A stretch of 43,897 bases of DNA, taken from positions 19,340 through 63,236 of the forward strand of contig NKIT01000008.1 in the NCBI GenBank assembly GCA_002256185.1, given 5' to 3'. The notes under the pieces are model-generated. The model did no database searches and had not been told where the DNA came from. It saw only the letters and a program-made list of their open reading frames with translations. Below, one piece after another: positions 19,999 to 32,941 of this stretch (position 1 is its first letter; each line of letters begins with the position of its first letter). Source of the DNA: Rhodobacteraceae bacterium PARR1. GTDB lineage: Bacteria > Pseudomonadota > Alphaproteobacteria > Rhodobacterales > Rhodobacteraceae. The position numbers were made by a program, and so were the translations under genes.

Positions 19999-20016
19999 GC
20001 TTTCCCGATATGTATC
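19999..20016 (-). promoter_or_regulatory. Candidate shared operator GATACATATCGGGAAAGC (- strand) upstream of GH127
   Basis: Aligns with sites at 28520-28537 (15/18) and 23541-23558 (13/18). Confidence 0.6.
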
Positions 20017-20033
20017 AGATTCGGGGGTATGAA

Positions 20034-21926
20034 ATGCGGCGCTATTCTTCGGTTCCGTTTTCGGATGTGGCGATCACCGGGGCCTTTTGGTCCGAACGGC
20101 TTGAGGTAGTGCTGACCCGCACCATCCCCAGCCAGCATAAGCAGTTGGAGAAATTCAACATGCTTCGGTCGTTGAAACTGCCCAAACCCGTGCCGCCGAC
20201 CACGATCCCACCGCAAGCCACTGGTTTCACGACGGAAATCTTCTGGGACAGCGATATCGGCAAATGGGTTGAGGCGGCGGCCTATGCCCTGTCGCACCGC
20301 CGCGATGCGGGGGTTGAGGGGCAGATTGAATCCATCGTTGATGACCTGGAAAAGGCCCAAGCGCCCGATGGATACCTGAACTGCTGGTATCTGGAGCGCG
20401 AGCCGGAAAACCGCTGGACCAATCTGCGCGACAACCACGAACTTTATAACGCTGGTCACCTGCTGGAAGGCGCGGTTGCCTATTTGCGCGCCACCGGGCG
20501 GGACCGGATGCTGCGGGTTATGGAACGCTACATCGACCACATTGCCACCGTTTTTGGCCGGGGTCCGGGGCAAAAGCGCGGCTATTGCGGGCATCAGGAA
20601 ATCGAACTGGCGCTGGTCAAGGCTTTCCATGCCACCGGGCAGCGCAAGTATCTGGACCTTGCCACCTATTTCATCGACGAACGCGGCGCGCAGCCGCATT
20701 ACTTTGACCTTGAGGCGCAGGCGAGGGGAGAGGCACCGGGCAAATTCCACCAAGGCACGCATGAATATTCCCAATCGCATCTGCCCGTGCGCCAGCAGAC
20801 CAAGGTGGTCGGCCATGCGGTGCGCGCGATGTACATGTATTCCGCCATGGCCGATCTGGCGGCAGAGCATGGCGACGACAGCCTGAAGCGGGCTTGCGAA
20901 GTGCTTTGGCAGGATGTCACCCGCACCCGGATGTATGTGACGGGTGGCTTTGGTCCATCGGCCCGCAACGAAGGCTTCACGCAGGATTATGACCTGCCCA
21001 ACGACACCGCCTATGCCGAAACCTGTGCCAGCGTGGCGATGGTGTTCTGGGCGGCGCGGATGCTGAACCTTGACCTCGATGGGCAGTATGCGGACCTGTT
21101 GGAACTGGCCTTGTATAACAACGCCTTGGCGGGGCTGTCCAAAGACGGCGAGACCTATTTCTACGACAACAAACTGGACAGCGACGGCAGCCATCGCCGC
21201 TGGGAATGGCACCCGTGCCCCTGCTGCACGATGAACGTGGCGCGGCTTGTCGCCTCGGTCGGGGGGTATGTCTTTGGGCTCGCCGGGGATGAGGTGGCGC
21301 TGCATCTTTACGGCGGGGCTTCCGCGCGGTTGGCGGTGGCGGGAACGGCCGTGCAGATCACCGAAACCTCGGCTTACCCGTGGGATGGCGCGATCCGGGT
21401 GACGGTTGATCCTGAAACGCCCGCCGAATTCACCCTGTCGCTGCGCATTCCCTCTTGGTGCCATGACGCCACGCTAGCGATCAACGGCACGCCGACGGCT
21501 GTGCAGACCGAACGCGGTTACGCCCGTTTGCGGCGGCAGTGGCAGGCTGGGGATGTGGTGACGCTGACCCTGCCGATGGCGGCGGAACGGCTTTACGCCC
21601 ACCCGGATGTGAAAGCCGATGTCGGGCGGGTGGCGCTGCGCCGGGGGCCGCTGGTCTATTGTCTGGAAGCGCTGGATCAACCCGCGCCGCTGCACCGAAT
21701 CCGCCTGCCGCGCGGGGCGGCGCTGACATCGCGTTTCCGGGCGGACTTGCTGGGCGGGGTGGCGGTGGTTGAAGGCGTGGGACGCGCGACCGCAGACCAA
21801 GGGTTCGCGGAAACCCTCTACCGCACCGAACCGCCGACAGAGTCAGATGCCCCCCTGACCGCAGTGCCCTATTACATCTGGTGCAATCGCGGGCCGAACC
21901 CGATGCAGGTCTGGCTGCGGGAATGA
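20034..21926 (+). CDS. Glycoside hydrolase family 127, beta-L-arabinofuranosidase-like (DUF1680)
   Basis: MRRYSSVPFSDVAITGAFWSERLEVVL..., Cys motif WHPCPCCTMNVARLVASVGGYVF. Start at ATG 20034 preferred; the ORF track begins at 19974. Confidence 0.92.
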   Translation: MRRYSSVPFSDVAITGAFWSERLEVVLTRTIPSQHKQLEKFNMLRSLKLPKPVPPTTIPPQATGFTTEIFWDSDIGKWVEAAAYALSHRRDAGVEGQIESIVDDLEKAQAPDGYLNCWYLEREPENRWTNLRDNHELYNAGHLLEGAVAYLRATGRDRMLRVMERYIDHIATVFGRGPGQKRGYCGHQEIELALVKAFHATGQRKYLDLATYFIDERGAQPHYFDLEAQARGEAPGKFHQGTHEYSQSHLPVRQQTKVVGHAVRAMYMYSAMADLAAEHGDDSLKRACEVLWQDVTRTRMYVTGGFGPSARNEGFTQDYDLPNDTAYAETCASVAMVFWAARMLNLDLDGQYADLLELALYNNALAGLSKDGETYFYDNKLDSDGSHRRWEWHPCPCCTMNVARLVASVGGYVFGLAGDEVALHLYGGASARLAVAGTAVQITETSAYPWDGAIRVTVDPETPAEFTLSLRIPSWCHDATLAINGTPTAVQTERGYARLRRQWQAGDVVTLTLPMAAERLYAHPDVKADVGRVALRRGPLVYCLEALDQPAPLHRIRLPRGAALTSRFRADLLGGVAVVEGVGRATADQGFAETLYRTEPPTESDAPLTAVPYYIWCNRGPNPMQVWLRE

Positions 21927-21932
21927 CCGAAA

Positions 21933-21959
21933 TGGCGGGCGGTTCAACACCGCCCGCCA
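21933..21959. terminator. Stem-loop between convergent GH127 and GH51 genes
   Basis: TGGCGGGCGGT-tcaac-ACCGCCCGCCA perfect 11-bp stem. Confidence 0.7.
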
Positions 21960-21969
21960 CCGGAAAGGA

Positions 21970-23487
21970 TCAGGTCAGCGCAACGCGGATGACCTGATAA
22001 GAAAACGGCGGCAAGCCCAGCTTAAGCGACCCATCTTCGACAATCGCGCCCGCGCCCTGCTTGGGGGCCACGTTCATCGGATTGACGGCGGTGTTCACGG
22101 CATAAAGGTCCGGATGGGTGATGACCTGATGGTCAATCACACGCCCCTGCGCGCCAAAGCCTTGCAGCGACAGCGAAAGATCCAACACCTCAGTCGGGTG
22201 GCGGTTGACGGCAAAGAAGCTGACCGTTCCGCCCGCTTCGTCATGCACACCCGAGATGTCCAGATACGGCACATTGTCGGCCACATCGGCATCATAGCCG
22301 GGGCAGACCACCGACAGGTTCAGCGCCGTGCCACGCCCGAAGATCGAGGCGAAGTAATAGGGGTAATAGATGGTCTGCCGCCAAGCCGCGCCCATCGGAT
22401 CGGTCATGATCGGCGCGATCACGTTCACCAACTGCGCGATACAGGCGATTTTGACGCTGTCAGAGCGGCGGATGAACGTGTTCAGGATACAGCCGACCTG
22501 CAACACATCCTCAAAGCAGTAGATATCTTCCAGCAGACGCGGCGCATGCGGCCAGCCCTCATTCCCGGCAAGGATAGCGCGGTCCTGTTCGTTCGAATGA
22601 TACCAGACATTCCATTCATCAAAGCTGATATAGACCTGATGCTTGGACCGCTTGTTCGCCTTGACCAGATTGATCGTCGACTGAACCGTTTCGATGTAGC
22701 GGTCCAGCTTGTGGTTCAGCGCCAGATAGTTGCCCGCGTGTTTCGTCCGGTTGGCGAAATACATGTGCAGGCTGATGTGATCGACCGACTCATAGGTGTG
22801 TTCCAGCACGATCCGTTCCCATTCGGGATAGGTTTTCATGTCGGAATTCGACGACCCGCAGACGATCAGTTCCAGCGATTTGTCAAAGGCGCGCAGGGCC
22901 TTGGCGGTTTCATTCGCGAGACGGCCGTATTCTTCGGCGGTCTTGTGGCCAACCTGCCACGGGCCGTCCATTTCGTTGCCCAGACACCACAGGCGGCAGT
23001 CAAAGGGTTCCGCGCGGCCGTTCTTCTTGCGCAGATCGCCCCAATAGCTGCCCGTCGGGCCGTTCACATATTCAACGAAATTCCGCGCCTCATCCAATCC
23101 CCGTGAGCCGAGGTTGATCGCCAGCATCATCTGCGTGCCAACCGTATCGCACCAGTCGGCGAATTCATGCACGCCCACTTGGTTCGACTCGGACGTATGC
23201 CACGCCAGATCCAGCCGCACCGGGCGCTGGTCGCGCGGGCCGACGCCGTCTTCCCAGTTGTAGGCCGACACGAAGTTGCCGCCCGGATAGCGCACATAAG
23301 GAATGTTCAGATCGCGCACCAACTGCGCCACATCGCTCCGCATGCCATTCTTGTCGGCGGTCGGGTGGTCGGGTTCGTAGATGCCGGTATAGATCGCCCG
23401 CCCGAGGTGTTCGAGGAACGCCGAATACACCCGGTCATCAATCCGGGCGATGGTATAGTCCTTGTGCGCAATGGCCGTCGCCTTCAT
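21970..23487 (-). CDS. Alpha-L-arabinofuranosidase, glycoside hydrolase family 51
   Basis: FLEHLGRAIYTGIYEPDHP, acid/base region CLGNEMDGPWQVGHK, ISFDEWNVWYH. Start MKATAIAHKDY (SD GGGAGGG); the ORF track begins at 23532. Confidence 0.93.
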   Translation of the reverse strand: MKATAIAHKDYTIARIDDRVYSAFLEHLGRAIYTGIYEPDHPTADKNGMRSDVAQLVRDLNIPYVRYPGGNFVSAYNWEDGVGPRDQRPVRLDLAWHTSESNQVGVHEFADWCDTVGTQMMLAINLGSRGLDEARNFVEYVNGPTGSYWGDLRKKNGRAEPFDCRLWCLGNEMDGPWQVGHKTAEEYGRLANETAKALRAFDKSLELIVCGSSNSDMKTYPEWERIVLEHTYESVDHISLHMYFANRTKHAGNYLALNHKLDRYIETVQSTINLVKANKRSKHQVYISFDEWNVWYHSNEQDRAILAGNEGWPHAPRLLEDIYCFEDVLQVGCILNTFIRRSDSVKIACIAQLVNVIAPIMTDPMGAAWRQTIYYPYYFASIFGRGTALNLSVVCPGYDADVADNVPYLDISGVHDEAGGTVSFFAVNRHPTEVLDLSLSLQGFGAQGRVIDHQVITHPDLYAVNTAVNPMNVAPKQGAGAIVEDGSLKLGLPPFSYQVIRVALT

Positions 23488-23540
23488 CTCGCGTCCCTCC
23501 CTGACGGTGCCGCCCGTTGTCTCAGGCGGCATGAGTATCT

Positions 23541-23558
23541 GGTTTACAGATATACATC
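23541..23558 (-). promoter_or_regulatory. Candidate shared operator GATGTATATCTGTAAACC (- strand) upstream of GH51, overlapping inverted repeat TATCTG-N5-CAGATA
   Basis: Same 18-bp pattern as upstream of GH127 and of the ABC binding protein; inverted repeat at 23536-23552. Confidence 0.65.
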
Positions 23559-23626
23559 AGGAAAATGGGAATTGCGTCAAGGCCAAACGCACGCAGCCCA
23601 TCACAGGGGTCGTCAGACGGGGGCCG

Positions 23627-24556
23627 TCACCGATCCGTGGTCAGCCGCATGATGATGTCTTGGTCATAGTTGCCGAACCCACGCCCGAAGATATTGATCC
23701 CCCCCGGATGGCGCGCGGAATCCTTGACCCCGATGCGAAAGCGGATCGACTTGTGCGCGCCAAGGTCCAGGTCTTTCAGCGACACGGGCGACATTTTCAG
23801 CCCGTCGACAAAGGTGCCCTCCTGCGTCACGCGCACCGATTTCAGCTTGCCATATTGGCTGCCCTTCAGCTTCCACCAATCGGGGGTATAGACTCCGCGC
23901 TGATCGCCAAAATCGCCCGGCGATGTCCATGTCCCGATGTCGATCTGGTTGATGGAAAAGGTGATGTCAGACGGCCAATCCGCCGCCGTGCCCGGCACTT
24001 CGGATGACAGTTCCATCGAAAACTCGACGGCATTCACCTGCGTATTCAGAAGCTTGGTGTTGTTGGGGAACTTGTATTCCACATAGCCGCGCGTGAACCA
24101 GATCAGCCCCGCCGTCATCCGCCCCGGATCAAGAAAGGTGTCCGGCACATCCAGAAGCCCGATGATCCCGGCGGTCGAACACAGACCGCAGGGCGCCGTC
24201 ACCTCGCAGCTTGTGTACAGGCCCAAGGGCATCGCCACCTCGATCACATTGTCCTTGGTGGCGGTGTTGTCCTTCTTGAACATCACCAACACCTCTTCGA
24301 ACAAGGGGTGGCAAATCTTCTGGTTGCCCTTCTTGGCACGCTGGGTCTCGGTGCGGATCAGGCCCGCATCCTCCAGCGATTGGACATTGGCGGAGATGCT
24401 GGACTGCGGCATCTCCATCGCCGCTGCCACGGCGTTGACGTTCATCGGCCCTTGTTGATGCAGTAATTTCAGAATGCCGATCCGCACCGGGGATGCCAAG
24501 GCTTTCAGGGTTTCAATCCCCTCTTCGGGATCGACGATCAGGAAGTTGCGGCTCAT
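23627..24556 (-). CDS. ArsR-like winged-helix transcriptional regulator with a ~200-aa C-terminal domain
   Basis: N-terminal wHTH LKALASPVRIGILKLLHQQGPMNVNAVAAAMEMPQSSISANVQSLEDAGLI; C-terminal region with CEVTAPCGLC and a beta-rich Trp/Gly-rich tail. Confidence 0.82.
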   Translation of the reverse strand: MSRNFLIVDPEEGIETLKALASPVRIGILKLLHQQGPMNVNAVAAAMEMPQSSISANVQSLEDAGLIRTETQRAKKGNQKICHPLFEEVLVMFKKDNTATKDNVIEVAMPLGLYTSCEVTAPCGLCSTAGIIGLLDVPDTFLDPGRMTAGLIWFTRGYVEYKFPNNTKLLNTQVNAVEFSMELSSEVPGTAADWPSDITFSINQIDIGTWTSPGDFGDQRGVYTPDWWKLKGSQYGKLKSVRVTQEGTFVDGLKMSPVSLKDLDLGAHKSIRFRIGVKDSARHPGGINIFGRGFGNYDQDIIMRLTTDR

Positions 24557-24634
24557 CCAGCGGCCTTTCGGTTCAATCCGCCCTCTGTATCAGCTTTTCG
24601 GGTTTGGTCAAATCTGGCGTGCCACGGCGGACCT

Positions 24635-25636
24635 TCACCGCCTCGGCCCGGTGATCGAGGCGCGTTCCACCAACTCGCAATCCAGCTTCATCCGCAGCGG
24701 TGCTGTGGGGGCAGGGGACAACAACCGATCCACCGCCCAGCGGGCCATTTCATCATGCGGCAGGACCATCGTGGTCAGCGGTGGTTGCAGGGTGGCCGCG
24801 ATGTCGTCGTTGTCAAAGCCGATCACGGACAGATCGTCGGGCAGGCGCAACCCGCGCTCCGCCGCCGCTTCATAGACCCCCAGCGCGACGCGGTCGTTGA
24901 AGCAAAAGATTGCGGTCGGCGGGTTTGGTTGCGAAAGCAGCGCAAGGGCCGATGCCCGCCCCGATGCCGCTGTCCATGCCGGGGTCGCCAAAAGCGACGG
25001 ATCAAAGGGCACATCCGCACTCGCCAAGGCGCGGCGATAGCCCAAGGCGCGGTCGCGCGCGGCCTCTCCCCAATCCTCGCCGGGGATATGGGCGATGCGG
25101 CGATGGCCTGCGCGGATCAGCGCGGTCGTTGCGGCAAATCCCGCCAGCACATCCCCCGGTACAACAGATGCCAAAGGGCTGCGCGCGGCGTGGCAATTCA
25201 GCAGCACGGCGGGCAGACCGTCCAAGGCGGCAGGCGGCTGCACCGCCCGCGTCACAAGGCTGGCATAGATCACCCCCGCCAGCCGTGTGGCGCGCAGACT
25301 GGCCAGCGCCGCCGCCTCCACCATCGGATCGCCGCCGGTGCAGCAGACCAGCACCAGCGCCCCTTGGGTAGCGGCCTCAAGCCGGGCACCTTCGATGAAC
25401 GGGGGTGCAAAGGGGGTTGTCACCACCTCATCAATCAGCAGACCGATCACCGGCGCGCCGCCCTGTTGCACCGATGCCTTGCGGGTGTAGCCCAGTTCCG
25501 CCGCAACACCCTGCACCCGCTGCCGCGTGGCTTCGGCAATCCGCGCATTGGCGACACCGTTCAGGACCAGCGACACCGTCGCCTGCGACACCCCCGCCCG
25601 CTGGGCAATATCGGACAAGGTCGCGCGTTTGGTCAT
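24635..25636 (-). CDS. LacI family transcriptional regulator
   Basis: HTH TLSDIAQRAGVSQATVSLVLNGVANARIAEATRQRVQGVAAELGYTRKA; ligand domain ends VIGFDNDDIAATLQPPLTTMVLPHDEMARWAVDRLL. Confidence 0.92.
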   Translation of the reverse strand: MTKRATLSDIAQRAGVSQATVSLVLNGVANARIAEATRQRVQGVAAELGYTRKASVQQGGAPVIGLLIDEVVTTPFAPPFIEGARLEAATQGALVLVCCTGGDPMVEAAALASLRATRLAGVIYASLVTRAVQPPAALDGLPAVLLNCHAARSPLASVVPGDVLAGFAATTALIRAGHRRIAHIPGEDWGEAARDRALGYRRALASADVPFDPSLLATPAWTAASGRASALALLSQPNPPTAIFCFNDRVALGVYEAAAERGLRLPDDLSVIGFDNDDIAATLQPPLTTMVLPHDEMARWAVDRLLSPAPTAPLRMKLDCELVERASITGPRR

Positions 25637-25747
25637 CCGGTCCTGTCCCGTGCGACCCGCCCCTTGCGAATCATCTTACCGGATTAAACGGGATCGGCTA
25701 CTCCTGCCAATGATAAAACTTTAGCAAAACCTTCAGCAGGGACGATC

Positions 25748-28489
25748 ATGCAAGAGCAGACGGTGACGGGCGCGCGGCAAATGATGTCTTTGGATGGCGC
25801 ATGGGACTTCCGGCATCAGGATGGCCCGTGGCGGGTCGCCACCGTGCCGGGGCCGTGGCAGGCAGAGTTTGCGGACCTGCGCCACAGCTCTGGCCGCGCG
25901 GTCTATCGCCGCCGTTTTTCGGTGCCGGATCATGCGCCGGGCACCGAAATCGTGCTGCACTTCGGCGCGGTCTTTTACTTCGCCACCGTCCGTGTGAATG
26001 GCATCGAGGTCGGCAAAAACGACAACGGCTGGCTGCCCTTTGACTGCGTGATCCCCCCCGCCCTCCTGCGGTCGGAAAATGAGGTGACGGTGGATTGCCT
26101 TCTGCCCGATGGCGATCCGGCCACCAGTCCCGACGCGCCCTTTGCCGAAATCCCGCATGGCAAGCAAAGCTGGTATGGCCCGACCGGCGGCATCTGGCAA
26201 AGCGTGGCGCTTGAGTTGCGCCACCCCTGCCACCTGACCCATGCCGCCATCGCGGCTGATCCCTCGGGGCGCGTCGGCGTCACGCTGCACCTGTCGCAAC
26301 CTTCCGACATCCGCCTGACGGTGATTGACCCCACTGGCGCGCGCGTGCTGCACCACGACCTGACGGCATCCGACACCACCATCACGGCCACGCTGACCGT
26401 GGACACCCCGCGCCTTTGGGGGCCGGATCACCCTGACCTCTACCGCCTGCGGGTGGAAATCGTCCGTGGCGCCGTGCTGGACCGGACAGAGCACAGCTTT
26501 GGCTTCCGCCACTTTGAAGCCCGCGACGGCAAGTTCTTCCTGAACGGCGCACCGTTCTACATGCGGGCTGCGCTGGATCAGGATTACTACCCCGAAGGCA
26601 TCTGCACCCCGCCCTCGATGGCCTATATCGAAGACCAGTTCCGCAAGGCGCGCGAGTTGGGCCTGAACATGCTGCGGACCCATATAAAAATCCCCGACCC
26701 GCGTTATTACGACGCCGCAGACCGGATGGGCCTGCTGATCTGGACCGAAATCCCCAACGTCGCCACCTTCACCGATGCCTCGGCAAGCCGGATGAAAGCG
26801 ATGATGGAGGGGATCATCGCCCGCGACGGCAATCACCCCAGCATCGTGATCTGGACCCTGATCAACGAGGATTGGGGCACACGCCTGTGCGAAGACCCCG
26901 CGCATCGGGCGTGGCTGGCGGCAACCTATGACTGGCTGAAACAGCGCGATCCGGGGCGGCTGGTGGTGGACAACTCCCCCTGCCACGGCAACTTCCATGT
27001 GAAAACCGATATCGACGATTTCCACTATTACCGCTCCGTCCCCGAACGGCGGGCCGAATGGGATGCGCTGACGGCGGAATTCGCAGGCCGCGCGGATTGG
27101 ACATTCTCGCCCTTTGGCGACGGGCAAAGGCGCGGCGATGAGCCCTTGGTCGTGTCCGAATTCGGGGTCTGGGGTCTGCCCCACCCCGATCAGGTGCGGA
27201 TCAATGCGGCAGAGCCATGGTGGATGGAAACCGGCGGCGCATGGGGCGACGGCGCGGCCTATCCGCATGGTGTGCAGGACCGTTTCGCGCAGATGCGGCT
27301 GGAACGGGTGTTCGGCAGCTTTGACGGCTTTGTCGCCGCCGTGCAGGGCTACCAATTCGCCAACCTGAAATATGAGATCGAGTCGATGCGCTCTCACGCG
27401 CCGATTCAGGGCTATGTCATCACCGAGTTTACCGATGTTCATTGGGAGTCTAACGGACTTCTCGATATGAACCGCAATCCCCGGTCGTTCCATGACCAGT
27501 TCGGCACCATCAACGCCGATGTGGTCATCGTCCCGCAGATTGACAGCTATGCCGGTTGGGCCGGGGATGTGTTTGAAATCGGCCTGTCGGTGGCGACGGG
27601 GGGGCAGGCGCTGCCTGCCGCTGACCTGCATTGGACCTTTGCCGATGCCAGCGGGGTTTGCCCCGTTGCCGCGACGCCCGCGCTCGCCGTGGCCCGGACC
27701 GAAGGGATTCGCCTGCGCCTGCCGGACAATGGCGCGAACCGGATGCTGGTGCTGGACCTGTGCCTGATGGCGGGCGGTCAGGTGCTGGCAACCAACCGGG
27801 TTGAATTCGCGCTTTATCATCGCCCGTCTCTGGCCGGGATGCCGACAGTGGGCAGTGCCGATCCCGCGCTGGCCGCCGATCTGGCGGCGCTGGGTCTGAC
27901 GGTGCTGCCCCCGGAAAAGGCAGATGTCACCGTGGCCCATGCGCTGGACGGGCAAGACATCGCCCGGATGCAGGGCGGCGCGAAATACCTTTTGATTGCA
28001 GATGGTTCCGGCGGTCTGCGCCTGCGGACAGATATGCCGCCGCGCGACCAACCCTTTATCCCGATTGTCGATGACATCCCCGGCCTGCCCATCAGCCAAG
28101 AGGGGCAGGTGCCAAATATGGTATTGCACCCCCGCCAAGGCACGATCTGGCGCGGCGACTGGATTGCCGGGTTTTCGTGGATCAGGCGCGCGGGCGTGTT
28201 TGCCGACATTCCGGGCGGCCCCTTGGTCGACCTGTCCTTTGACCGGGTGATTCCCCACCATGTGCTGACCGGATTCCGCACATGGGAATATGGTGGGCCG
28301 GTGCATGCGGGGCTGGTGGTCGGCTGGTGCCAGAAACCTGCTGCGCTGATCGCCGAACGGGCCGTGGGGCGCGGCCATCTGGTCGCCACCACCTTCCGTC
28401 TGCGGGCGGATGCACCGGGCCTTGATCCTGTTGCCACGGCTTTGACCCATGCAATGCTGCGTCTGGCCGGAAATGGCGGAGGCGCATAG
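25748..28489 (+). CDS. Glycoside hydrolase family 2 protein (beta-galactosidase/glucuronidase-like)
   Basis: GH2 jelly-roll start (SLDGAWDFRHQDGPWRVATVPGPWQAEF), NMLRTHIKIPDPRYYDAADRMGLLIWTEIPN, HPSIVIWTLINEDWG acid/base motif. Confidence 0.9.
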   Translation: MQEQTVTGARQMMSLDGAWDFRHQDGPWRVATVPGPWQAEFADLRHSSGRAVYRRRFSVPDHAPGTEIVLHFGAVFYFATVRVNGIEVGKNDNGWLPFDCVIPPALLRSENEVTVDCLLPDGDPATSPDAPFAEIPHGKQSWYGPTGGIWQSVALELRHPCHLTHAAIAADPSGRVGVTLHLSQPSDIRLTVIDPTGARVLHHDLTASDTTITATLTVDTPRLWGPDHPDLYRLRVEIVRGAVLDRTEHSFGFRHFEARDGKFFLNGAPFYMRAALDQDYYPEGICTPPSMAYIEDQFRKARELGLNMLRTHIKIPDPRYYDAADRMGLLIWTEIPNVATFTDASASRMKAMMEGIIARDGNHPSIVIWTLINEDWGTRLCEDPAHRAWLAATYDWLKQRDPGRLVVDNSPCHGNFHVKTDIDDFHYYRSVPERRAEWDALTAEFAGRADWTFSPFGDGQRRGDEPLVVSEFGVWGLPHPDQVRINAAEPWWMETGGAWGDGAAYPHGVQDRFAQMRLERVFGSFDGFVAAVQGYQFANLKYEIESMRSHAPIQGYVITEFTDVHWESNGLLDMNRNPRSFHDQFGTINADVVIVPQIDSYAGWAGDVFEIGLSVATGGQALPAADLHWTFADASGVCPVAATPALAVARTEGIRLRLPDNGANRMLVLDLCLMAGGQVLATNRVEFALYHRPSLAGMPTVGSADPALAADLAALGLTVLPPEKADVTVAHALDGQDIARMQGGAKYLLIADGSGGLRLRTDMPPRDQPFIPIVDDIPGLPISQEGQVPNMVLHPRQGTIWRGDWIAGFSWIRRAGVFADIPGGPLVDLSFDRVIPHHVLTGFRTWEYGGPVHAGLVVGWCQKPAALIAERAVGRGHLVATTFRLRADAPGLDPVATALTHAMLRLAGNGGGA

Positions 28490-28519
28490 ACCCCGCGCAA
28501 TCATGGTATCGCACAAACC

Positions 28520-28537
28520 GATACATATCTGAAAATC
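28520..28537 (+). promoter_or_regulatory. Candidate shared operator GATACATATCTGAAAATC upstream of the ABC importer operon
   Basis: Immediately precedes a TTGACA -35-like hexamer (28540-28545); adjacent inverted repeat GTATCG-N7-CGATAC (28506-28524). Confidence 0.65.
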
Positions 28538-28730
28538 GGTTGACACAAGGGCGGCTGGCTCATTAGCCTTTGACCCAAGCGGACGGATTGCGATCAGCGG
28601 CAGGAGGAGGCTGCGGATCGCGCGAAAATCACCCGCCGACGAAGGACAGACCCGGATGCGCCGCCGGGTCACCACCGACAAATGAGGGCGCAACTGGGCC
28701 GAAACGGCCCGCGACATGGGAGGTCTATGG

Positions 28731-29999
28731 ATGAAACGCCTGTTCAGTGCGGCCGTTCTGGCTGCTGTATTTGCTTCTCCGATGGCGATGGCCAAGGAGA
28801 CGGTTGTGTGGTGGGACTTCCTCGGCGGCGGTGACGGCGTCCGGATGAAGAAGCTCATCGAAGACTTCAACGCCGCGCATGCCGACACCATCGAAATTCA
28901 GGCGACGACGCTGGATTGGGGTGTGCCCTTTTACACCAAGGTGCAAACCTCTGCCGCCGTGGGCGAAGGCCCGGACGTGATGACCTATCACGCCTCGCGC
29001 ATTCCGCTGGCCGTCAGCCAAAGCACCCTGACCGAAATCACGCCTGACGACATGGCGGCGATGGGCCTCAGCGCCGACAGCTTTGCCAAGGAAACCTGGG
29101 ATGCGGTCAACGTCGATGGCAAGCAATATGCCGTGCCCTTCGATACGCACCCCATCGTGCTGTATTACAACAAGGACTTGCTGGAAAAGTCGGGTCTGAT
29201 CGGGGCTGATGGCCTGCCCGCTGGCTTGGACGGCAAGGACAACTTCACCGCCGCACTGCAAAAGCTGAAGGATGACGGCAACGAATGGTCCATCGTGCAG
29301 GTGACCGCTGACGGCGGCTTTGCCTTCCGCACGATCTATTCGCTGCTCTGCCAGCAGAACGGCAGCATCGGCGGCGATGGCGCGTGGTTCCCCGATGACA
29401 ACGCCGACAAACTGGCCAATGCCGTGCAGGTCATTTCGGATTGGGTCGGCGCGGGCTTCAACCCCAGCTACACCGACTATCCGTCGACCGTGGCGCTGTT
29501 CACCTCGGGCGCGTCGCCCTTCATGATCAACGGCGTGTGGGAAGTCCCGACCATGGTTGACCTGCAATCGCAGGGCAAACTGTTCAACTGGGGTGCCATC
29601 GAACTGCCGGTGCTGTTCGACAAGCCCTGCACCTATGCAGACAGCCACTCTTTCGCCATCCCGAACAACGCGGGCAAACCTGCGACCCCGGAAAAGCATG
29701 CGGCCGTGCTTGAGGTCATCAAGTATATGTCCGACAACTCGCTCTTCTGGGCGACGGCGGGTCACGTTCCGGCCAACGTGGCTGTGACCGAAACCGCCGA
29801 ATACAAGGCGATGCAGCCGCAGGCGACCTATGCCAAGCTGACCGCCAATCAGGTGTTCGACCCCAAGTCGGTGCATGCCGGTGTGGCCTCTGCCCTGTTT
29901 GACTCGGCAGGCAACGCCTTTACCGCAGCGATCAACGGCGAAACCGATCCCGCCACTGCCGTTGCGGAAATGAAAGCCACCATGGACGCGCTGCAATAA
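28731..29999 (+). CDS. Extracellular sugar-binding protein of ABC transporter
   Basis: Signal peptide MKRLFSAAVLAAVFASPMAMA, KETVVWWDFLGGGDGVRMKKLIEDFNAAH; family 1 solute-binding protein. The ORF track begins at 28716. Confidence 0.92.
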   Translation: MKRLFSAAVLAAVFASPMAMAKETVVWWDFLGGGDGVRMKKLIEDFNAAHADTIEIQATTLDWGVPFYTKVQTSAAVGEGPDVMTYHASRIPLAVSQSTLTEITPDDMAAMGLSADSFAKETWDAVNVDGKQYAVPFDTHPIVLYYNKDLLEKSGLIGADGLPAGLDGKDNFTAALQKLKDDGNEWSIVQVTADGGFAFRTIYSLLCQQNGSIGGDGAWFPDDNADKLANAVQVISDWVGAGFNPSYTDYPSTVALFTSGASPFMINGVWEVPTMVDLQSQGKLFNWGAIELPVLFDKPCTYADSHSFAIPNNAGKPATPEKHAAVLEVIKYMSDNSLFWATAGHVPANVAVTETAEYKAMQPQATYAKLTANQVFDPKSVHAGVASALFDSAGNAFTAAINGETDPATAVAEMKATMDALQ

Positions 30000-30009
30000 C
30001 GCGCATCTT

Positions 30010-30039
30010 TTGGCGGGCCTTGACCCCAAGGCCCGCCAA
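30010..30039 (+). promoter_or_regulatory. Stem-loop in binding protein/permease intergenic region
   Basis: TTGGCGGGCCTTG-accc-CAAGGCCCGCCAA: perfect 13-bp stem, 4-nt loop. Confidence 0.85.
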
Positions 30040-30059
30040 TCTGCGCCCGCCAATCTGCG
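30032..30059. repeat. 14-bp direct repeat cccgccaatctgcg x2
   Basis: Two identical adjacent copies, overlapping the right arm of the stem-loop. Confidence 0.8.
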
Positions 30060-30102
30060 CCCGCCGAACCGCATCCGACAATTCGCACCGACCGGAGGCC
30101 AC

Positions 30103-30981
30103 ATGCTCAGGAACCGTCGCAGCGACCTTGTCGTCGCCTATCTGCTGACCGCCCCTTTCATCCTTGTCTACGCATGGCTGTTCGTCTGGCCGGTGGTGCA
30201 GATGGTGATGCTGACCTTTACCGACGCGCCACTGATCGGCGACGGCAAAGCGGTTGGTTTCGCCAATTACGAACGGATGTTCAAAGACCCGGTGTTCTTC
30301 AAGGCGATCTGGAACACCTCGTATTTCGTCCTCTTGACCGTGATCCCCGGCACCGCTGTCGCCCTTGGCATCGCGCTGATGGTGTCGCGTCTGGGGGGAT
30401 GGCTGCAAAGCGCGGTGCTGGCGGCGTTCTTCCTGCCCTATATCCTGCCGGTCACCGTGGTCTATGTGATCTGGGATTGGCTGACCAACGTGCAATTCGG
30501 GATGCTGCAAAGCGTGCTGGAATGGGTGACAGGCCGCCCCGTCAACCTGTGGCGCGCGATCCCGTGGTTCATGCCCAGCGTGGCGGTCATCACCATCTGG
30601 TGGACCAACGGCTTTTCGATCCTGCTGTTTCTGGCAGGCTTGCGGAACATCCCCAAAGACCTCTATGAGGCGGCGGCTTTGGACGGTGCCACCCGCTGGC
30701 AGATGTTCAGCCGCATCACCTGGCCCCTGATCTGGCCGATCACCGTGCTGTGCCTGACGATCCAACTGATCCTGCAACTGAAGATCTTCGATCAGGTCTA
30801 TCTCTTTGCAACCGGCGGGCGCACGCAGGCGACGATGGTGCTGGTCCAGTATATTTACGAACAGGCATTCCAAAAGAACGCCAGCGGCTATGCGGCAACG
30901 ATTGCGCTGGCCTTGTTCGTGATCGTCGTCGTGTTCTCTGTCCTGCAATTCCAACTTCTTCGCATCCGGGGGCAGAAATGA
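30103..30981 (+). CDS. Carbohydrate ABC transporter permease (MalF-type)
   Basis: MLRNRRSDLVVAYLLTAPFILVYAWLFVWPVVQMV; EAA loop DLYEAAALDGATRWQMFSRITWPLIWP; SD GGAGG before ATG 30103. Confidence 0.9.
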   Translation: MLRNRRSDLVVAYLLTAPFILVYAWLFVWPVVQMVMLTFTDAPLIGDGKAVGFANYERMFKDPVFFKAIWNTSYFVLLTVIPGTAVALGIALMVSRLGGWLQSAVLAAFFLPYILPVTVVYVIWDWLTNVQFGMLQSVLEWVTGRPVNLWRAIPWFMPSVAVITIWWTNGFSILLFLAGLRNIPKDLYEAAALDGATRWQMFSRITWPLIWPITVLCLTIQLILQLKIFDQVYLFATGGRTQATMVLVQYIYEQAFQKNASGYAATIALALFVIVVVFSVLQFQLLRIRGQK

Positions 30982-31853
30982 GCGGCGATCCCACCACCCG
31001 CGACACCTCGCAATCCACGGCGCTGTCACATCTGACACGCTCTCCGGCGGGGATACTCCTGACCCTGCTGACGCTGATCTGCGCCGCGATCTGGTTCTTT
31101 CCGATCTACTGGGCCATCATCACCAGCCTGCGCAGCGATCAGGCCACGGTTCAGGAATTCGGGATGCTGCCGACCGAGCCGACGCTCAGCGGCTATATCT
31201 TCGCCATCGTCAATTCCGAACTGCCGATCTGGTATCTGAACTCCACCATCGTGTCGGTCAGCGTCACCGTTCTGGTGGTGTTCATGTCCGCCTGCACCGG
31301 CTTTGCCATCTCGCAACTCAGGTTTCCGGGGCGGATGGTGCTATGGTGGACGATCCTTACCAGCTTCATGGTGCCGATCACGGCGCTGATCGTGAACCAC
31401 TTCATCATCATCGCCGGGGTCAAACTGCTGAACACCCATATCGGGATGATCCTGCCGATGCTCCTTAGCCCCGTCACGGTCATCGTCTACAAGCAATTCT
31501 TCGACGGCCTGCCCAAGGAATTCCGCGAGGCGGCGGTGATGGACGGCGCAACCGAACTCCAAGTGTTCCTGCGGGTGTTCCTCCCGATGAACTGGGGGGT
31601 GACCACCGCGCTGGCCATCATCACCTTCATCGGCGCGTGGAACAGCTTCCTGTGGCCGTTCCTCGTGGCGCAGGATGAGAAGATGATGACCGTCACCGTC
31701 GGTGTCTCTGCGGTGCAGGATGCATACGGCGTGGCCTATGGCCGCGTGCTGGCCGGGGCGGTGCTGGCCTCCTTGCCGGTGGCGCTGGCCTATCTGTTCT
31801 TTCAACGCCGCGTCACGCAGGCAATCACTCTTTCTGCTGGGATCAAGGGATAG
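30978..31853 (+). CDS. Carbohydrate ABC transporter permease (MalG-type)
   Basis: MSGDPTTRDTSQSTALSHLTRSPAG...; EAA loop EFREAAVMDGATELQVFLRVFLPMNWG; ATGA overlap with the upstream permease. Confidence 0.9.
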   Translation: MSGDPTTRDTSQSTALSHLTRSPAGILLTLLTLICAAIWFFPIYWAIITSLRSDQATVQEFGMLPTEPTLSGYIFAIVNSELPIWYLNSTIVSVSVTVLVVFMSACTGFAISQLRFPGRMVLWWTILTSFMVPITALIVNHFIIIAGVKLLNTHIGMILPMLLSPVTVIVYKQFFDGLPKEFREAAVMDGATELQVFLRVFLPMNWGVTTALAIITFIGAWNSFLWPFLVAQDEKMMTVTVGVSAVQDAYGVAYGRVLAGAVLASLPVALAYLFFQRRVTQAITLSAGIKG

Positions 31854-31855
31854 TC

Positions 31856-32941
31856 ATGGCGTCTGTAGAGCTTTCTCAACTGACCAAGCGGTTCGGCGGG
31901 TTAGAGGTCATCAGCGGTCTGAACCTGTCGGTCGAGGACGGGTCGTTCTGCGCCCTTCTCGGCCCCTCAGGCTGCGGCAAATCCACGCTTTTGCGAATGG
32001 TGGCGGGGCTGGAAACGGTGACCAGCGGCACGGTGCGCATCGGCGACCGTGACGTGACCAGCACGGAACCCAAAAGCCGCGGCGTGGCGATGGTGTTCCA
32101 ATCCTACGCCCTTTATCCGCACCTGACGGTGGCCGAAAACATCGCCTTCAGCTTGTCTTTGGCCGGGGTGTCCAAGGCGAAGAAAACCGAACATGTCGCC
32201 CGCGTTGCCGCCATGCTGCGCCTTGAACCGCTGCTGGAACGCAAACCTGCCCAACTGTCCGGCGGTCAGCGCCAGCGTGTTGCCATCGGTCGCGCCTTGG
32301 TGCGCGATCCGTCGGTGTTCCTGTTCGATGAACCCTTGTCGAACCTTGACGCCCTTCTGCGCGTGCAGATGCGTCTGGAACTGGCCAAACTGCACAATGA
32401 CCTGAAAACCACGATGATCTACGTGACCCATGATCAGGTTGAGGCCATGACCTTGGCCGACAAGATCGTGGTCTTGGACAAGGGCGTGATCTCTCAGGCT
32501 GGGTCCCCGTGGGAGCTTTACAATCGCCCCGCCAACCGCTTTGTCGCGGGCTTCATCGGCTCGCCGGGGATGAATTTCCTGAAAGGGCAGGCGCGGCACA
32601 CGGGCGACGGTGTCAGCGTCACCTTGCAAGGCGGCATCACCCTGACCCTGCCGCCCCGCGCCGTTGCCGCTTTCACAGGCGAACGCAGTGTGGAAATCGG
32701 TATCCGCCCGGAACATGTGACGCTCGCCAGTGGTTCGGATGCACAGATCAGTGGCAAGGCATCAGTCGTGGAATATCTGGGCAACACATCCTTCGCCTAT
32801 GTCGACACAGCCCAAGGGTCCATCATCGTGCAGGCAGACGGCGCCACCCGGATCAATGCGGGCGATACGGTTGGACTGGCCCTGACCACGGCAGAGGCCC
32901 ATATCTTTGACGACACCGGCCAAGCCTGGCCGCATCTCTGA
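31856..32941 (+). CDS. Sugar ABC transporter ATP-binding protein (UgpC/MsmK-like)
   Basis: [58 protein letters not shown]. Confidence 0.93.
   Translation: MASVELSQLTKRFGGLEVISGLNLSVEDGSFCALLGPSGCGKSTLLRMVAGLETVTSGTVRIGDRDVTSTEPKSRGVAMVFQSYALYPHLTVAENIAFSLSLAGVSKAKKTEHVARVAAMLRLEPLLERKPAQLSGGQRQRVAIGRALVRDPSVFLFDEPLSNLDALLRVQMRLELAKLHNDLKTTMIYVTHDQVEAMTLADKIVVLDKGVISQAGSPWELYNRPANRFVAGFIGSPGMNFLKGQARHTGDGVSVTLQGGITLTLPPRAVAAFTGERSVEIGIRPEHVTLASGSDAQISGKASVVEYLGNTSFAYVDTAQGSIIVQADGATRINAGDTVGLALTTAEAHIFDDTGQAWPHL

Follow-up and report, generated by a model that had tools for sequence, protein, structure and literature searches.

A conserved half-site operator, probably that of an ArsR-like regulator, at arabinoside import and hydrolysis genes of Alphaproteobacteria

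An element that recurs upstream of several genes in a 43,897-nucleotide stretch of Rhodobacteraceae bacterium PARR1 (hereafter, the window) is most probably the operator of the ArsR-like protein encoded at 23627-24556, which would act as a local, autoregulated repressor of arabinoside import and hydrolysis that is relieved by an inducer. The genes surrounding the sites are the following:

20034-21926, plus strand: GH127 beta-L-arabinofuranosidase-type enzyme (PF07944, 351.5 bits)
21970-23532, minus strand: GH51 arabinofuranosidase, ArfA equivalog (NF051901, 859.6 bits, cut-off 625), with its true start probably at 23487
23627-24556, minus strand: ArsR-like regulator of 309 aa, with a winged helix at about residues 1-95 and a beta-sandwich C-terminal domain
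24635-25636, minus strand: regulator of the LacI family, not considered a binder of the element
25748-28489, plus strand: GH2 glycosidase
28734-32941, plus strand: CUT1-type ABC importer (binding protein, two permeases and a MalK-type ATPase)

The initial annotation had described the element as an 18-mer recurring at 28520-28537 on the plus strand and at 19999-20016 and 23541-23558 on the minus strand. All three copies are present at these positions, their pairwise identities (15, 14, and 13 of 18 by hand count) agree with the claimed range of 13-15, and each copy has 0 mismatches to the consensus GATRYATATCKGNAAANC. While the element is thus real in all three upstream regions, its register was wrong, as the structured unit covers 23 bp and reads GATR-N2-TATC-N9-GRTA. 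Moreover, a fourth, weaker site at 24588-24604 had been overlooked, and the importer site is inverted with respect to its gene and reaches the -35 box. The revised sites are listed here together with a separate palindrome from the same cluster:

20007-20029, minus strand: GH127 operator TACCCCCGAATCTGATACATATC, overlapping the 18-mer at 19999-20016, with 0 mismatches to TAYC-N9-GRTA-N2-TAYC
23536-23558, minus strand: GH51 operator GATGTATATCTGTAAACCAGATA (GATR-N2-TATC-N9-GATA), containing the 18-mer at 23541-23558
24588-24604, minus strand: fourth site, AACC-CGAAAAGCT-GATA, a dyad in the promoter of the ArsR-like gene, flanked by TTGACC (24606-24611) and the likely -10 box
25711-25726, plus strand: LacI-type palindrome TGATAAAACTTTAGCA, between the LacI and GH2 genes
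28507-28545, plus strand: transporter operator with -35 box, TATC-N9-GATA-N2-TATC-N9-GTTGACA, containing the 18-mer at 28520-28537

Related loci were fetched with the ArsR-like protein, yielding 9 other genomes of the family and 80 named loci drawn from Rhodobacterales, Devosia, Pelagibacterium, and Rhizobiaceae; in nearly all of the 90 loci gathered, the ArsR-like gene adjoins GH51. Judged from these sequences, the basic unit is a 4-bp half-site, GRTA/TAYC. Half-sites form an everted dyad, TAYC-N9-GRTA, usually with a third half-site 2 bp off, and they recur at constant distances in three promoter types across the 90 loci, namely those of the ArsR-like gene, GH51, and the transporter operon. 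An anchor-free spacing scan (≤1 mismatch allowed, non-redundant loci, shuffled controls) rules out the 18-mer as the unit, since it is the half-sites that emerge; read in this register, the 18-mer is made up of two half-sites and part of the N9 linker. Of 80 non-redundant loci, 69 have TAYC-N9-GRTA upstream of the ArsR-like gene, compared to a mean of 6.2 in shuffles, and spacings of 7, 8, and 10 were at background. Of 72 non-redundant regions upstream of GH51, 68 contain GRTA-N2-TAYC and 44 contain TAYC-N9-GRTA (means of approximately 9 in shuffles). A further signal upstream of GH51, at a spacing of k=11 (46/72), probably reflects the fixed -10 box, which reads TACAAC in many Devosia.

A sigma-70 consensus scan of 23400-28750 found no promoter, and promoter boxes were therefore read from conservation. 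On this basis, the GH51 operator of the window lies approximately 17 bp downstream of TTGACG, over the expected -10 region. Between the ArsR-like gene and GH51, usually about 30-75 nt ahead of the latter, there is a conserved palindrome; most Devosia have CTGATAYAAATCAG, and Rhodobacterales have GATGTATATC, GATCTATATC, or GATATACATC. In Devosia loci, including L075, L077, and L079, a second sequence, AAAAATCATACAAAAG or CAAAAATCATATTTTTGA, recurs farther upstream of the GH51 promoter. In a divergent Rhodobacterales group (L033-L039), the half-sites are GGTA/TACC, e.g., CCGGTATTTACCGG, in the same geometry, and the recognition helix is almost unchanged; across the loci compared, no clean pattern of co-variation between the recognition helix and GATA or GGTA half-sites was found. 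At the promoter of the ArsR-like gene itself, the window arrangement TTGACC-A-AACC-N9-GATA spans 24588-24611 and includes one imperfect half-site (AACC). Of 89 promoters of ArsR-like genes, 52 match the corresponding pattern TTGAY-N2-NAYC-N9-GRTA exactly, and all other spacings occurred twice.

The transporter promoter shows the strictest arrangement. Each of 32 loci has a single copy of TATC-N9-GRT-N3-WAYC-N10-TTGACA; with either internal spacing (N9 or N2) altered, it was found in 0 loci, and with the distance to TTGACA altered, in 2 in all. In every aligned Rhodobacterales locus, the site is located where GH2 ends or in an equivalent place, with TTGACA behind it (with 1 additional base in L046), and the -35 box is a perfect TTGACA in 19 of 19 such loci aligned without requiring this hexamer. 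The pattern precedes two unrelated types of importers: CUT1 in Rhodobacterales and a Dpp/Opp-type system in Devosia and Pelagibacterium, whose binding protein was assigned by judgment from translations. This importer swap under a conserved operator can be seen at L079 (13025-15086) and L107 (12666-14693), which represent Devosia/Pelagibacterium and the Dpp/Opp type. Of 199 genomes from the family, 3 contain the transporter pattern exactly, and all 3 are within the 10 that carry the regulator, a co-occurrence with a chance of approximately 1 in 10,000 (hypergeometric, calculated by hand). Most of the other regulator-bearing genomes of the family belong to the divergent GGTA/TACC group, in which, from reading by eye, the geometry is unchanged.

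The earlier proposal that one regulator serves all three transcription units is strongly supported by these conserved half-sites and their fixed spacing at the promoters of orthologous loci. Since the regulator always goes with the element, the ArsR-like protein is its likely binder, and a repressor fits because the sites cover the -35/-10 spacer of the regulator gene, the -10 region of GH51, and the importer region up to the -35 box. From the sites, their spacing, positions, and conservation, and their co-occurrence with the regulator, we infer binding, repression, ligand, and dimer stoichiometry as follows. A dimer of the ArsR-like protein would most likely recognize the everted 4-bp half-sites of TAYC-N9-GRTA, and several dimers may bind at GH51, GH127, and the importer, where another half-site lies 2 bp away from the dyad. 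As long as inducer is absent, the protein would cover four places, namely its own -35/-10 spacer, the -10 stretch of GH51, the bases immediately ahead of the GH127 start codon, and the importer region up to and touching the -35 box, and would keep all four units off. An arabinoside or L-arabinose, as suggested by the fold matches of the beta-sandwich and the gene content, would then bind to the beta-sandwich domain and cause release, so that importer and arabinofuranosidases would be made together. Speaking against this reading are the imperfect half-site in the window's autoregulatory dyad, the restricted occurrence of the GH127 operator, the GGTA/TACC half-sites of L033-L039 despite an almost unchanged recognition helix, the weak fold matches of the C-terminal domain, and the constant distance to the importer -35 box, which would suit an activator as well.

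A dual action of the same regulator on the same operators, repressing its own gene and GH51 but activating the importer, where the dyad centers lie near -61 and -42, is the strongest of the alternatives, if a rather unlikely one. It would account for the distance of 10 bp between core and TTGACA, which does not vary between the two transporter types or among several families, and the fourth importer half-site (GTTG/ATTG) is poor, so that a second dimer need not account for the spacing. Nevertheless, the perfect TTGACA in all 19 aligned Rhodobacterales loci argues against the need for an activator, and the site positions at the other promoters fit repression only. Slightly more doubtful is an extended version in which the protein represents an undescribed ArsR clade: a fused lectin- or CBM-like beta-sandwich sensor would read arabinosides directly, and a tandem multi-half-site operator would serve to repress the hydrolase and to activate whichever importer has been recruited.

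Besides the ArsR-like protein, which the initial annotation considered the best candidate, it named the neighboring LacI, and the first choice turns out to be by far the better one. That LacI is encoded within the same cluster and that the core of the element is palindromic could speak for LacI as the binder, yet the LacI-GH2 intergenic regions contain a different palindrome, TGMTAA-N4/5-TTAKCA, which is conserved in 17 Rhodobacterales loci including the window and which the shared element does not match. The only exact match in the window is 25711-25726, and this site probably controls GH2 and/or LacI. Among the collected loci, close homologs of this LacI are confined to Rhodobacterales, while Devosia and Rhizobiaceae loci that have no such LacI still keep the element ahead of both GH51 and the ArsR-like gene, and it is the ArsR-like gene's own promoter that the element marks. 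We therefore rejected LacI, whose binding to the element is very improbable.

With up to 3 mismatches to the 18-mer consensus, the window contains 5 matches compared to 0.64 expected, a number reached in 0 of 100 shuffles. In the whole 4.09-Mb genome, these three sites alone match with 0-1 mismatch, and 3-mismatch matches are common. The genome scan, with its refuting condition set beforehand, thus found the motif to be rare at random positions, and the comparison of related loci likewise found the sites conserved. The rarity of the consensus alone is circular, because it was fitted to the same three sites. With a matrix built exclusively from Rhizobiales GH51 operators, the window sites ranked 1st, 3rd, and 5th in 43.9 kb, with single scores within the range of shuffles (whose maximum averages 13.9); since the scores overlap, the weight rests on cross-species conservation and fixed spacing. 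A chance likeness of three AT-rich promoter stretches, with which these single scores and the common 3-mismatch matches would agree, has hardly any probability left, as it is refuted by the spacing scan, in which dozens of loci keep the spacing fixed at three classes of promoters, and by the genome-wide co-occurrence with the regulator.

The GH127 operator ends 4 bp short of the ATG at 20034, and its core was found in the window and in one close relative whose upstream region is complete (L042). A comparison of upstream regions revealed that L044 and L054 encode GH127 but lack the operator. A wider regulon in this genome was rejected, as a search of the whole sequence, allowing ≤1 mismatch to TAYC-N9-GRTA-N2-TAYC, gave 16 matches, below the 51 of the reversed control. 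Two matches outside the window were inspected and rejected as background, one within a coding frame (L130) and one intergenic, beside a symporter-like gene (L126).

The ArsR-like protein matches PF12840 (42.4 bits, cut-off 27) and PF01022 (27.3, cut-off 22), with NF033788 (HTH_metalloreg) at 53.3 bits falling just under its 55-bit cut-off. It lacks the traits of metalloregulators (a length of approximately 100 aa and an ELCVCDLC-type metal site in the winged helix), being 309 aa long and devoid of such a motif. Searches with AlphaFold and Foldseek indicated an ArsR-type winged helix, with ArsR structures among the best matches, and a C-terminal beta-sandwich with weak fold matches (TM-score by query length <0.4) that include carbohydrate-binding modules, accessory domains of GH115, and lectins. 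C82, C123, and C126 are invariant in 44 orthologs, the latter two being located in the C-terminal domain; a metal or redox site in this sugar-linked ArsR protein is possible. Three distant paralogs with 32-34% identity (L147-L149) are encoded in G304, a small AT-rich genome of the same class, and have neither a GH51 nearby nor an evident operator.

The ArsR family is best known for sensors of metals and sulfur, and NolR is a small member of the family without a C-terminal sensor domain. A half-site pair with an N9 linker that overlaps the promoter, as found here, corresponds to the operator type of the ArsR family, and an ArsR binder is plausible because NolR and SqrR use half-site pairs with N9 or N8. 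The Sinorhizobium repressor NolR (ArsR/SmtB), likewise from Alphaproteobacteria, shares the N9 linker but differs in half-sites and target genes, with (A/T)TTAG-N9-A(T/A) at symbiosis genes (PMC12445080). SqrR/YgaV also recognizes everted half-sites with nearly the same spacing and represses its own gene by covering promoter elements, but its site is ATTC-N8-GAAT and it senses sulfide/persulfide (PMC9774250). The sole precedent for an ArsR-family regulator with arabinofuranosidases in the literature found is ArbA/ArbR of Caldicellulosiruptor bescii, a predicted repressor beside an alpha-L-arabinofuranosidase gene with conserved predicted sites, which was called the first ArsR-family regulator of carbohydrate utilization (PMC8579813). 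Compared by description only, both systems place an ArsR-family gene beside an arabinofuranosidase gene, while ArbA differs in its divergent transcription, its thermophilic Gram-positive genus, and the additional control of abfA by AraR. The GH51 of the window clearly belongs to the ArfA family, and published open-access papers yielded neither a regulator of ArfA (NF051901) loci nor a description of an alphaproteobacterial ArsR-like/arabinoside system.

Thus, a sugar-linked ArsR regulator, otherwise only predicted in one thermophile genus in the literature found here, may be associated with an operator that is defined at the base level across many Alphaproteobacteria, including plant-associated Rhizobiaceae, and that provides a search pattern for arabinoside loci. 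The importer is swapped under an unchanged operator geometry, suggesting a promoter architecture that is kept constant by the regulator, and the regulator, sites, and effector of this plant-arabinoside circuit are now directly testable.
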